A DNA stretch of 64,000 bases from Collinsella tanakaei. GTDB lineage: Bacteria; Actinomycetota; Coriobacteriia; Coriobacteriales; Coriobacteriaceae. The position numbers and the translations under genes were made by a program. The notes under the pieces are model-generated. The model searched no databases and was not told the DNA's origin. It saw only the letters and a program-made list of their open reading frames with translations. The stretch lies in contig NZ_JADYTL010000007.1 in NCBI RefSeq assembly GCF_021531055.1, forward strand, positions 62,001-126,000, written 5' to 3'. Positions 21,742 through 50,080 of this stretch are shown here, in pieces. The stretch's first letter is position 1. Every line of letters starts with the position of its first letter.

Positions 21742-21806
21742 CGACAAGATGGTGCCAGGTTCAATCTTGTCGCGTCTGACAAGATGGTGCCAGGTTCAAT
21801 CTTGTC
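21742..21806. repeat. REP-like tandem pair
   Basis: Two hairpins in the same orientation, 21742-21772 and 21778-21806. Each is GACAAG, the core ATGGTGCCAGGTTCAAT and CTTGTC. Partial stem sequences (ATCTTGTCGGG, TCTTGTCGAC) continue to about 21842. Confidence 0.85.
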
Positions 21807-38879: not shown

Positions 38880-38950
38880 GGCGACAAGATGGGGCCAGGT
38901 GCAAACTTGTCGCTTGCCGACAAGTTTGCACCTGGCCCCATCTTGTCGCC
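38880..38950. repeat. REP-like perfect inverted pair
   Basis: Perfect 33-bp arms (38880-38912, 38918-38950) with loop CTTGC. Each arm is GCGACAAG, the core ATGGGGCCAGGTGCAAA and CTTGTCG. It begins 7 bp after the mfd stop codon. Confidence 0.92.
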
Positions 38951-39007
38951 GTCGTGTCGGCGCTATACTGAGGGCACAGTGCCCGCGTTCGCAAGGAGTT
39001 GCGCATC

Positions 39008-40090
39008 ATGGCATACGAACAGGACCGGCGCGGCGTCGACCAGATCAGGCGCCTCGGTCGCTATGTTCTCATCCGGCGGCTCATCACGCTGTGCTGCGTC
39101 GGTATCGCCGCTTTGCTCCAAGCCTTCGTCATCCGCGTGTTCGTCGAGCCCGCCAACCTGCTGTCGGGCGGCTTTACGGGCCTTGCCATCCTCATCGACC
39201 GCATCACGCAGCTGTTCGGCGTGAGCTTTCCCACGTCGGCGGGTATGATCGCGCTCAACATCCCCGTCGCCCTCCTGTGCTGGAAAAGCATCAGCAAGCG
39301 GTTCGTGATCTTCTCGATGATCCAGGTGTTCCTGGCGAGCTTCTTCTTGCAGTTCGTTCCCTTCGAGCCGCTGCTCGACAACACGATCCTGTGCGTGCTG
39401 TTCGGCGGCGTGCTCAACGGCCTCGCGATCTCCATCGCGCTCAAAAGCGGCGCCTCGACGGCGGGTACCGACTTCATCGCCCTCATGGTGTCCAACAAGA
39501 CCGGCAAGACCATCTGGGGTCAGGTGTTCCTGTTCAACTGCGTGATCCTGATCGTGTTCGGCACGATCTTCGGATGGGAGCACGCGGCGTACTCCATCGT
39601 GTTCCAGTTCCTGTCCACCAAGACGATCGACAGCTTCTACCACCGCTACGACCGCGTGACGCTGCAGATCGCCACCTATCACGCCGACGAGGTGCTCGAA
39701 GCCTATAACGACGTGTTCCACCACGGGTCGACGTGCTTCGAGGCGTACGGCGGCTACAGCAAGAAACCCGTGACCTTCATCGTGAGCGTCGTGTCCTCCT
39801 ACGAATCGGAGGACGTGATCCGGCTGGTCCGGCATGTGGACCCACGCGCCGTGATCAACGTGACCAAGTCCGAGAACTTCGTGGGCAATTTCCACCGTGC
39901 GCCCGCCGACGAGCCCCTGCCTACCGAGGTCGACGAAACGCCGGCAAACGACCCTGTGCTCGAGCTTGCCTCCACGATCCGCCGCGGCATGGAGCAATCG
40001 ACCGATGCTCTGGAACAGACTGCCGCTGCCCGCGCCGAGCGCGTCGCCGAGGGCCTCGCCGACGCCGCAGATCGGCTTATCGAGAAGTAG
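39008..40090 (+). CDS. YitT family membrane protein (paralogue 1)
   Basis: 360 residues. Five to six membrane helices of the YitT/DUF161 domain (ALLQAFVIRVFVEPANLLSGGFTGLAILIDRI; LNIPVALLCWKSISKRFVIFSMIQVFLASFF; SIALKSGASTAGTDFIAL) are followed by a cytoplasmic DUF2179 domain (ITLQ-type region VTLQIATYHADEVLEAY to VRHVDPRAVINVTKSENFVGNF) and an Ala/Glu-rich tail. Function is unknown. Start ATG 39008 follows AAGGAG; a TATACT box is at 38964-38969. A second YitT gene lies 1.5 kb away. Confidence 0.85.
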   Translation: MAYEQDRRGVDQIRRLGRYVLIRRLITLCCVGIAALLQAFVIRVFVEPANLLSGGFTGLAILIDRITQLFGVSFPTSAGMIALNIPVALLCWKSISKRFVIFSMIQVFLASFFLQFVPFEPLLDNTILCVLFGGVLNGLAISIALKSGASTAGTDFIALMVSNKTGKTIWGQVFLFNCVILIVFGTIFGWEHAAYSIVFQFLSTKTIDSFYHRYDRVTLQIATYHADEVLEAYNDVFHHGSTCFEAYGGYSKKPVTFIVSVVSSYESEDVIRLVRHVDPRAVINVTKSENFVGNFHRAPADEPLPTEVDETPANDPVLELASTIRRGMEQSTDALEQTAAARAERVAEGLADAADRLIEK

Positions 40091-40112: not shown

Positions 40113-41345
40113 TTACAGTCTCAAGATGTTCCGTCCCGTATCGCTCAGGCGGAAAACCGGCGGTCTTTTGCTCACCCTTACGATGAGGTTCGCCGAGATA
40201 AGCTCATCAAAGGACTTGCGCGCCGTTGGCCTGCTCACGCTCAGCCACGCGGCGACATCCGCCATACGTGTTTCGTGGAACGCGTCGAACAGCTCCATCT
40301 GCGCCGCGTAAAAGAGGACGTCGAGCGAGCGTTCGGACAGGTCGAGTTTGCAGTGGGCGATGCGTTCCTCGAGCTCGTCGAGCAGATGGCGCTTTTCATC
40401 GAGTTCGGCGATAAGCTGCTCTTGCGCCTCTGAAACGAGCCCGAGCATCGTCATGACGAAATGCGTGCCCTCCGCGCGATTGAGCTTTCGCTCAGCTGTG
40501 TCGAATGCACGATAGTAGACGCTTTTGTGTTCGGCGATCGTTCTTGACAGCGATAAAACGGTGGGCTGGGAAAGCGGCTTGCTGAGGTGCAGCGCGAGCA
40601 GATAGCGGCCCGTCCGTCCGTTCCCGTCGTAAAACGGGTGGATATAGCCGAACAGGAAATGACAGAGCAGCGCGCTGTATGTCTCCGGAATAGCTTCGGA
40701 ACGTGAGAGCTCAAGCCATTGTGTGAGCATCTCCTCGATCTTCGCCTCCGGGGAAACACCGACATGCACAACCTTTCCGGTTCCGGTTTCGACCACGACC
40801 TGCCCTGTACGGAACAGGCTGTCGCCCAGCTTATCCTTCTCGTCCAGAGCGTCCACCACAATCGCGTCATACGAGCTGCGGATATCTTGAAGGGTGCGCG
40901 GGGGCTGAGGGTTGTCGATGAGTCCGAGGTAGAGTTTCGCGAACTCGAAGAACGGTGCATGGCGGCCCGGTGATCCGCCGAATGCCGATTCGCGTTGCGC
41001 CTCCTCGAGTGCCAGCTCGATATCGCGACGCGTACTGTGCACGCCTTCGATCTCGTTGCTGCAGACCACCTCATCCATGATGAGCGTCCGAATGTAGGCG
41101 CCGAGCGCCGTGGTTGGAAGGCTGCGCCACAGAGCGGATACCTTGCGTTCCCGCCTGAGCACCTGCTCGTTCATCAATGACAGTTCACGCGGGACAGCGA
41201 GGAACAGCTCTCCTGTATCCAGATGGATTCCCGTGCGGAATGTCGATTCGCTCTCGAGTCGCTGTTTGAGTAAGAGCTCATGTTTTTTGTATCTATCGGA
41301 GGAGCTGTCAGCATAGAAGAGCTTTTCAAGCGTTGCGTATGCCAT
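40113..41345 (-). CDS. Fic family protein with C-terminal winged helix
   Basis: 410 residues. Fic proteins usually transfer AMP to target hydroxyls. The core motif HPFYDGNGRTGR is intact, and the N-terminal inhibitory motif SNEIEG classes it with self-inhibited class II proteins. A winged-helix-like C-terminus (DVAAWLSVSRPTARKSFDELISANLIVRV) suggests DNA binding. Start ATG 41345 follows GAGGAGGG. Its upstream DNA carries the 51-bp palindrome array, a plausible autoregulatory target. It is convergent with one yitT gene, and the other yitT gene lies upstream on the same strand. Confidence 0.92.
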   Translation of the reverse strand: MAYATLEKLFYADSSSDRYKKHELLLKQRLESESTFRTGIHLDTGELFLAVPRELSLMNEQVLRRERKVSALWRSLPTTALGAYIRTLIMDEVVCSNEIEGVHSTRRDIELALEEAQRESAFGGSPGRHAPFFEFAKLYLGLIDNPQPPRTLQDIRSSYDAIVVDALDEKDKLGDSLFRTGQVVVETGTGKVVHVGVSPEAKIEEMLTQWLELSRSEAIPETYSALLCHFLFGYIHPFYDGNGRTGRYLLALHLSKPLSQPTVLSLSRTIAEHKSVYYRAFDTAERKLNRAEGTHFVMTMLGLVSEAQEQLIAELDEKRHLLDELEERIAHCKLDLSERSLDVLFYAAQMELFDAFHETRMADVAAWLSVSRPTARKSFDELISANLIVRVSKRPPVFRLSDTGRNILRL

Positions 41346-41366
41346 ATTCCCTCCTCAAATCAAGCT

Positions 41367-41532
41367 TTCTTTCCGATAGTCTAGCTTATTCCCGTGCTAT
41401 CGGAAAGAAATCGCGAATTCTTTCCGATAGCGTTGGATTGCCCGCGTCTATCGGAAAAAATCCGACGATTCTTTCCGATAGCTATGGAATAGGGGAGCCC
41501 ATCGGCAACCGGAAGCCGTTTCTTTCCGATAA
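41367..41532. repeat. 51-bp-phased palindrome array upstream of fic
   Basis: CTTTCCGATAG occurs at 41369, 41420, 41471 and (as CTTTCCGATAA) 41522, exactly 51 bp apart. The complement CTATCGGAAA occurs at 41397 and 41448, with a degenerate copy at 41499. Adjacent copies form palindromes 41397-41430 (13-bp arms) and 41448-41481 (14 of 15). Spacers are not conserved. It starts about 20 bp upstream of the fic start. The plus strand also stays open, encoding a 17-residue repeat (ILSDSxG...SIGK). The rest of the gap to 41627 holds no gene. Confidence 0.85.
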
Positions 41533-41627
41533 GGGGGGTTGCCGTGATCCGCGGAGAGCCGATCGCCTGTCGTGCGCAACCGGCTTGGGATCACAGCCCG
41601 CGTCGGCAGCGCCGTTCGTGCTCAGCG

Positions 41628-42623
41628 CTACCTGCCGTCGTCCTGCAGCAGGGCGCTGCGCTTGCGGGTGGTCGACGAGCGCGGCGGCAGCTTGTTGGGG
41701 TCGGGTACGGCGGTCGGCACCGGTTCGTCCACGTGACCGTGCCACCAGCCGCCGATGAAGTTGTCGGTGCGCAGGATGTTGATCACCACGCCGGGGTCGA
41801 TGTCGCGCATGAGCTTGACGATGTCCTCCGACTCATAGGTGGAAACTACCGCGTGCAGCAGATACATCTTTTCGCGGCTATACCCGCCGATGATCTCGGC
41901 GCAGCTGATGCCGTGCTGGAAGCGCTCGATGTAGGCGGTCATGATCTCGTCGGCGTACTTGGTGGTCACCTGCAGGGTGACACGGTCGTAGCGGTGGTAG
42001 AAGCTGTCGATCGATTTGGTCGAGATGAACTGGAAGACGATGGCGTACGCAGCGTTGTCCCAGCCGAACAGCGCGCCGAAGATCACGAGCACGATGCAGT
42101 TGCCCGCGAACACGAAACCCCAGATGGTCTTGCCGGTCCGGTTGGACACGAGCAGTGCGATGAAATCGGTGCCGCCCGTGGACGCACCCGCCTTGAGCGC
42201 GAGCGCGATGGAGATGCCCGACAGGAAGCCGCCGAACACCACGAGCAGCATCTTGTCATCGAGCAGCGGTTCGAAGTGGAACACCTGCAGAAACAGGGAG
42301 GACAGCGCAACCTGCATCATGGAGAACAGCACGAAGCGATGGCTGATGCTCTTCCAGCACATGATGGCCACGGGGATGTTGAGCGCGAGCATGCCGAGCG
42401 AGGTGTCGATGCGCACGCCGCCAAGCGAGGTGATGCGGTCGAGCAGTACGGCGATGCCGGTGAATCCGCTCGGCAGCAAGTCGGCGGGGTTCACGAACGC
42501 CTGGATGAGGAACGCCTGGAGCAGGGCCGACGCCGTGACGGCCACCGCGGTGATGATGCGGCGGACGACGGTGAGACGTGCGAGTTCGAGCGCGCGGTCG
42601 GAAAGGGTGTCGGCGGCTGCCAC
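41628..42623 (-). CDS. YitT family membrane protein (paralogue 2)
   Basis: 331 residues, closely similar in layout and motifs to the protein at 39008-40090: LLQAFLIQAFVNPADLLPSGFTGIAVLLDRITSLGG, LNIPVAIMCWKSISHRFVLFSMMQ, LALKAGASTGGTDFIALLVSNRTGKTIWG, STKSIDSFYHRYDRVTLQVTTKYADEI and MRDIDPGVVINILRTDNFIGGWW. DUF161 membrane domain plus DUF2179. It starts at GTG 42623 after AAGGAGGAACCC and is divergent from recQ. A duplication separated by the fic gene is the simplest explanation. Confidence 0.85.
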   Translation of the reverse strand: MAAADTLSDRALELARLTVVRRIITAVAVTASALLQAFLIQAFVNPADLLPSGFTGIAVLLDRITSLGGVRIDTSLGMLALNIPVAIMCWKSISHRFVLFSMMQVALSSLFLQVFHFEPLLDDKMLLVVFGGFLSGISIALALKAGASTGGTDFIALLVSNRTGKTIWGFVFAGNCIVLVIFGALFGWDNAAYAIVFQFISTKSIDSFYHRYDRVTLQVTTKYADEIMTAYIERFQHGISCAEIIGGYSREKMYLLHAVVSTYESEDIVKLMRDIDPGVVINILRTDNFIGGWWHGHVDEPVPTAVPDPNKLPPRSSTTRKRSALLQDDGR

Positions 42624-50015: not shown

Positions 50016-50080
50016 CGACAAGTTTGAACCCGGCCCCATCTTGTCAGGGCGACAAGTTTGTACCTGGCACCATCTTGTCG
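50016..50080. repeat. REP-like tandem pair
   Basis: Two units in the same orientation, 50016-50045 and 50050-50080. Each is CGACAAG, a core (TTTGAACCCGGCCCCAT or TTTGTACCTGGCACCAT) and CTTGTC. The first core also folds with upstream GATGGGGCCGGG (50004-50015). The second unit touches the stop codon of the M16 protease gene. Confidence 0.85.

Follow-up and report, generated by a model that had tools for sequence, protein, structure and literature searches.

Class II Fic proteins with a winged helix-turn-helix (wHTH) domain are common, and what restrains them is, to our knowledge, largely unknown. The genome of Collinsella tanakaei puts this question in concrete form: within the 64,000-nucleotide stretch analysed here (the window), a 51-bp-phased repeat array lies directly upstream of a fic gene (40113-41345, minus strand). 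On the fic strand the repeat unit is a 34-bp palindrome, CTATCGGAAAGAA-N8-TTCTTTCCGATAG, with 17-bp arms, followed by a 17-bp unconserved spacer, and the array is better read as three inward-facing 34-bp palindromes and a half unit, with 17-bp spacers between them:

40113-41345, minus strand: fic, class II Fic protein, 410 aa.
41346-41379: putative operator 0, an in-phase half unit that lies one 51-bp step away from operator 1 and consists of TTTCTTTCCGATAG (41366-41379) alone.
41380-41396: spacer between operators 0 and 1, 17 bp, unconserved.
41397-41430: putative operator 1, 34-bp palindrome in which 16 of the 17 arm pairs match, centred at -68 relative to the fic start codon.
41431-41447: spacer between operators 1 and 2, 17 bp, unconserved, different from that of relatives though the sites stay the same.
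41448-41481: putative operator 2, 34-bp palindrome in which 14 of the 17 arm pairs match, centred at -119.
41482-41498: spacer between operators 2 and 3, 17 bp, unconserved.
41499-41532: putative operator 3, one side degenerate, half-sites matching at 19 of 24 positions, centre at -170.
41333-41758, plus strand: antisense open reading frame with a 17-residue repeat, 141 aa, judged not to be a gene.

The half-site CTTTCCGATAG occurs exactly on the plus strand at 41369, 41420 and 41471, and its complement exactly at 41397, as a sequence-only reading of the locus had stated; the copies at 41448 (CTATCGGAAAA) and 41522 (CTTTCCGATAA), also given there as recurrences, carry one mismatch each (two of the six good half-sites), and that at 41499 (CCATCGGCAA) is degenerate, as described. 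The exact 51-bp phase stands, all start-to-start spacings and the TRF period being 51. The position of the missing half of putative operator 0 is taken by the fic ribosome-binding region. Half-site matches with at most two mismatches number 20 in the window against 10.4 expected, a count reached by none of 100 dinucleotide shuffles, and a scan of the whole 2.23-Mb genome with the 13-mer CTATCGGAAAGAA (at most one mismatch) found six occurrences in the array, one elsewhere, and no further array or regulon outside the fic locus. The single similar site near recQ (42693), to which attention had been drawn, has no counterpart in a 93%-identical relative and looks like chance. We also attribute to chance the half-site-like CTCCGATAG in fic codons 15-18 (+45 to +53), which is two bases off phase and encodes a conserved SDR. 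A promoter scan of the window returned no -10 element of fic's own above threshold; a weak candidate, TAGACT (minus strand, 41378-41383), picked by eye at the edge of the spacer between operators 0 and 1, lies below it.

The fic product matches the Pfam Fic family (E 2e-12) and has a canonical Fic motif, HPFYDGNGRTGR (residues 236-247), nearly invariant among 30 orthologs. We assign it to class II because its N-terminus carries the inhibitory motif SNEIEG (residues 96-101), which fits (S/T)xxxE(G/N); among the same orthologs N97 and E100 are invariant and E98 and G101 nearly so. An AlphaFold2 model calculated from the 30 orthologs (pLDDT 91.6) bears out the winged-helix C-terminus proposed from sequence: the domain is predicted at about residues 338-400, with helices at 338-353, 361-368 and 372-384 and wing strands at 388-393 and 396-400, and the C-terminus alone (residues 330-410) matches MarR-type wHTH regulators. 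Over most of its length the model resembles SoFic (3zcn, Z 26.6) and CbFic2 (8cil, Z 25.3). The protein matches the PADLOC SoFic model (E 2e-37) and falls short of the equivalog cut-off of the NCBIfam SoFic family (NF046030; 63.8 bits against 550). Only 23 bp separate the end of fic from the next gene, so that no downstream antitoxin gene fits. Two related genes for YitT-family membrane proteins (38999-40090 and 41628-42623) flank fic and face each other; in genomes G026 and G046 about 9-10 kb separate their yitT counterparts.

Comparison with relatives, in genome collections with one genome per species, reveals that the palindrome is retained while its sequence changes. Fic orthologs are present in 11 of 67 genomes of the family and 71 of 397 of the order. 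The genome-contig scan found two close relatives only; on viral contigs a phage Fic alignment used as query recovered 50 loci, and scans with the window Fic or the Fic of locus L102 gave zero matches. We assembled 112 non-redundant upstream regions of Fic-wHTH genes from Coriobacteriia and from phages and plasmids of Bacillota (the latter at roughly 30% identity), with automatically assigned start codons, and searched them with a rigid model of 17 arm pairs. The best palindrome per locus scores on average 12.7/17, compared with 10.3 for shuffled sequences and 9.9 for a coding control; palindromes of at least 14/17 occur in 38 of the 112 loci and in none of the controls (Wilcoxon p 2e-17), and a 34/35-bp palindrome overlapping the candidate fic promoter is found far above chance over the whole set. 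Under the rigid model 53 of the 112 loci have none of at least 13/17, so some members may use another geometry.

In the nearest species the site is unchanged and the spacers are new, whereas other relatives have different palindromes in the same place (e.g. CTAAAAGAAAG, CTAATAATGAA, CTATTTGATAG and CTTATTTGTAC). Both halves co-vary between the clades typified by these sequences and by CTATCGGAAAG; arm symmetry across loci is about 80-97% for most of the arm and drops past its outer end. The palindromes follow fic orthologs, their sequence differing with fic even inside one genus, and in many relatives they are single-copy. At yitT2 flanks without an adjacent fic the palindrome is absent. Genome G042 (L021:3375-3720) lacks fic between two yitT genes and yet has a near-perfect, partly tandem-duplicated array there; an array without an adjacent fic would be hard to understand had the gene not been lost recently, and recent loss is the simplest account.

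The distance between copies is conserved where their sequence is not. We took the best palindrome of each locus and sought the same sequence at other distances: second copies lie at 50-52 bp in 31 loci, at 40-42 bp in six, and at 43-49 bp in none. These steps correspond to five or four helical turns. Pooled over 77 loci, the profile has its maxima at 51 and 52 bp (Stouffer z 13.8 and 14.2), followed by 50 (z 5.0) and then 23 bp (z 4.5), and no comparable 51/52-bp peak appears in gene interiors, downstream regions or far upstream regions used as controls. The peak is present in loci of the CTATCGG type (z 7.6), in other Coriobacteriia (z 13.8) and in Bacillota phages and plasmids (z 6.8), with individual steps upstream of Fic genes of 51 bp in the satellite phage Javan335 (L098), 41 bp in a plasmid of L. 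salivarius and 40 bp in phage TP901-1 (L097). Relatives therefore keep a phase of about 51 bp, the loss of which the sequence-only reading had named as evidence against its proposal. Since the repeat sequences are unrelated, the step cannot come from common descent of the repeat, while the geometry of a bound protein can explain it. What is conserved across phyla is the geometry, and the literature searched contained no earlier description of such a sequence-independent arrangement.

We infer that the array very probably serves to switch off a toxic SoFic-like enzyme by autorepression through several operators, to which the C-terminal winged helix of Fic itself would bind. One Fic dimer would sit on each 34-bp palindrome, its C-terminal winged helices contacting the DNA; dimers 51 bp apart (about five helical turns) would therefore lie on the same face of the DNA, and neighbours would probably aid each other's binding. 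The three and a half phased operators, which cover the putative fic promoter and the ribosome-binding region, would let the dimers jointly repress fic and keep a potentially toxic AMPylating enzyme scarce with no separate antitoxin gene, so that several operators may replace the role of a downstream one. Same-face cooperative operators and autoregulation by the winged helix had been proposed at the outset, and the comparative evidence favours them: linkage to fic, co-variation of the halves, steps of 50-52 and 40-42 bp, and, in relatives, candidate promoters that the palindrome overlaps. Where a -10 element can be recognised in a relative, it sits within the palindrome or immediately up- or downstream of it, the arrangement of a repressor site and not of a leader hairpin.

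As to the binder, operator change mostly tracks general phylogeny (r 0.52 for the Fic core, 0.50 for the wHTH domain). With the core controlled, it is the recognition-helix segment, of all segments, that correlates best with operator distance (0.172, p 0.002), a small effect in partial Mantel tests, which are liberal; the N-terminal segment shows no such correlation (-0.17). This hints weakly that, once overall Fic divergence is removed, the predicted recognition helix is the segment that best tracks operator type.

If a host DNA-binding protein other than Fic bound the array and controlled fic, the persistence of the G042 array without an adjacent fic would be natural. Such a protein would have to account for operators that differ among fic orthologs within one genus, yet form an array unique to fic in the genome; moreover, fic is the only gene seen travelling with the array, across phyla and into satellite phages beside integrases, and the characterised precedent CccR binds its own promoter. 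We therefore consider this account distinctly improbable. Attenuation or translational control by RNA hairpins in the fic leader could draw on the perfect inverted repeats and on relatives whose best -10 precedes the palindrome, which would hence be transcribed. In L013, L022, L054, L067 and L084, however, the best -10 lies downstream and the palindrome is hence untranscribed; strict phasing of 51/52 or 41 bp has no reason in RNA; and the slight excess of G.U-capable mismatches (16 against 10.9 expected) is nearly equalled by A.C mismatches (11). An Rfam search gave no match, and a hairpin function seems very improbable to us.

Palindromic repeats with variable spacers, and fic relatives that adjoin phage integrases, might also suggest a non-regulatory element, i.e. 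a recombination or attachment site or a CRISPR-like or REP-like repeat. This is hardly credible given that the spacers are 17 bp, that many relatives have single-copy palindromes, and that the repeat changes by clade at a fixed distance from fic and has no further copies in the genome. The rival offered by the sequence-only reading, a peptide of 17-residue repeats encoded on the plus strand in antisense to the fic promoter, merits next to no credence: the frame (41333-41758) is open in the window, 51 being a multiple of three, but it is unconserved, with stops inside the repeat in the closest relative (L004, 93% Fic identity) and periods of 50 and 52 elsewhere that break it while the DNA sites are retained. 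A Pfam search with the 141-aa product gave no match.

A further role for the DNA may be imagined on top of autorepression by Fic, namely that operator DNA acts as antitoxin to a defence toxin made by a single gene, ordered same-face dimers being also kept inactive or de-AMPylating. The model for this is CbFic2, in which DNA-induced dimerisation gives an inactive or de-AMPylating state; by that analogy the idea is conceivable, and we regard it as unlikely. Were it true, the conserved step of 51/52 bp (five turns) or 41 bp (four turns) would be the trace left by an ordered Fic filament.

The closest known system is CccR (YPK_0951) from Yersinia pseudotuberculosis, a class II Fic protein with a C-terminal HTH and the same domain order as the fic product, for which footprint and reporter experiments show autorepression through a palindrome near -35/-10 of its own promoter, dimerisation being required (PMC9755527). 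The Collinsella protein shares the Fic motif and the C-terminal winged HTH, and its gene the palindrome in its own promoter. In contrast to the single 46-nt CccR operator, AGATAATCAT-N26-ATGATAATCT, with two 10-bp boxes 26 bp apart (PMC9755527), the sites found here are 34/35 bp long with 10-bp boxes 14 bp apart, and there are up to 3-4 or more of them, phased at 51/52 or 41 bp. Unlike the T6SS effector CccR, the Collinsella Fic gives no hint of secretion. Tandem phasing and a family-wide, sequence-independent geometry are what is new here for the autorepressing Fic-HTH kind.

The SoFic/Sofic anti-phage proteins (3EQX, 3ZCN; EcSofic, PMC12249575) share the inhibitory motif, the Fic motif and the C-terminal domain. 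Identity to SoFic is 20% and the Collinsella protein has no DUF4172 match; its putative anti-phage link is suggested by PADLOC similarity and phage-borne relatives. EcSofic has an antitoxin gene downstream (PMC12249575), while the 23 bp after Collinsella fic leave no room for an AS1-like antitoxin gene. Cloning a toxic Sofic needed three contiguous lac operators (PMC12249575), and DNA binding by SoFic was not shown (PMC10628234). CbFic2 from Coxiella burnetii (8CIL) is a class II Fic protein with a wHTH that binds DNA and is DNA-stimulated; no specific operator is reported for it and its target is histone (PMC10628234). ORF56 of the Lactococcus phage TP901-1 and the Fic of Streptococcus satellite phages are about 30% identical to the Collinsella protein over the full length and have upstream palindrome arrays with different operator sequences; these genes are phage or satellite-phage cargo, and we found no description of the TP901-1 and Javan335 arrays in the literature searched. 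Type II toxin-antitoxin operons offer a general parallel, as several palindromes in the promoter of a toxic gene there mediate its autorepression. Here toxin and DNA-binding repressor would be one polypeptide, with no separate antitoxin. Kept from Collinsella to streptococcal satellite phages, the geometry predicts the position and the form of operators in relatives; with dozens of naturally occurring pairs of protein and operator, the recognition code of the Fic winged helix may become readable, and how a one-gene toxin spares its host becomes a directly testable question.

Apart from the array, the window contains a REP-like element, TTTGNACCNGGCACCATCTTGTC, at 21751-21803, 38891-38939 and 50020-50071. 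It has 119 matches in the genome (at most two mismatches) against 0 for a reversed-pattern control, often in inverted or direct pairs.
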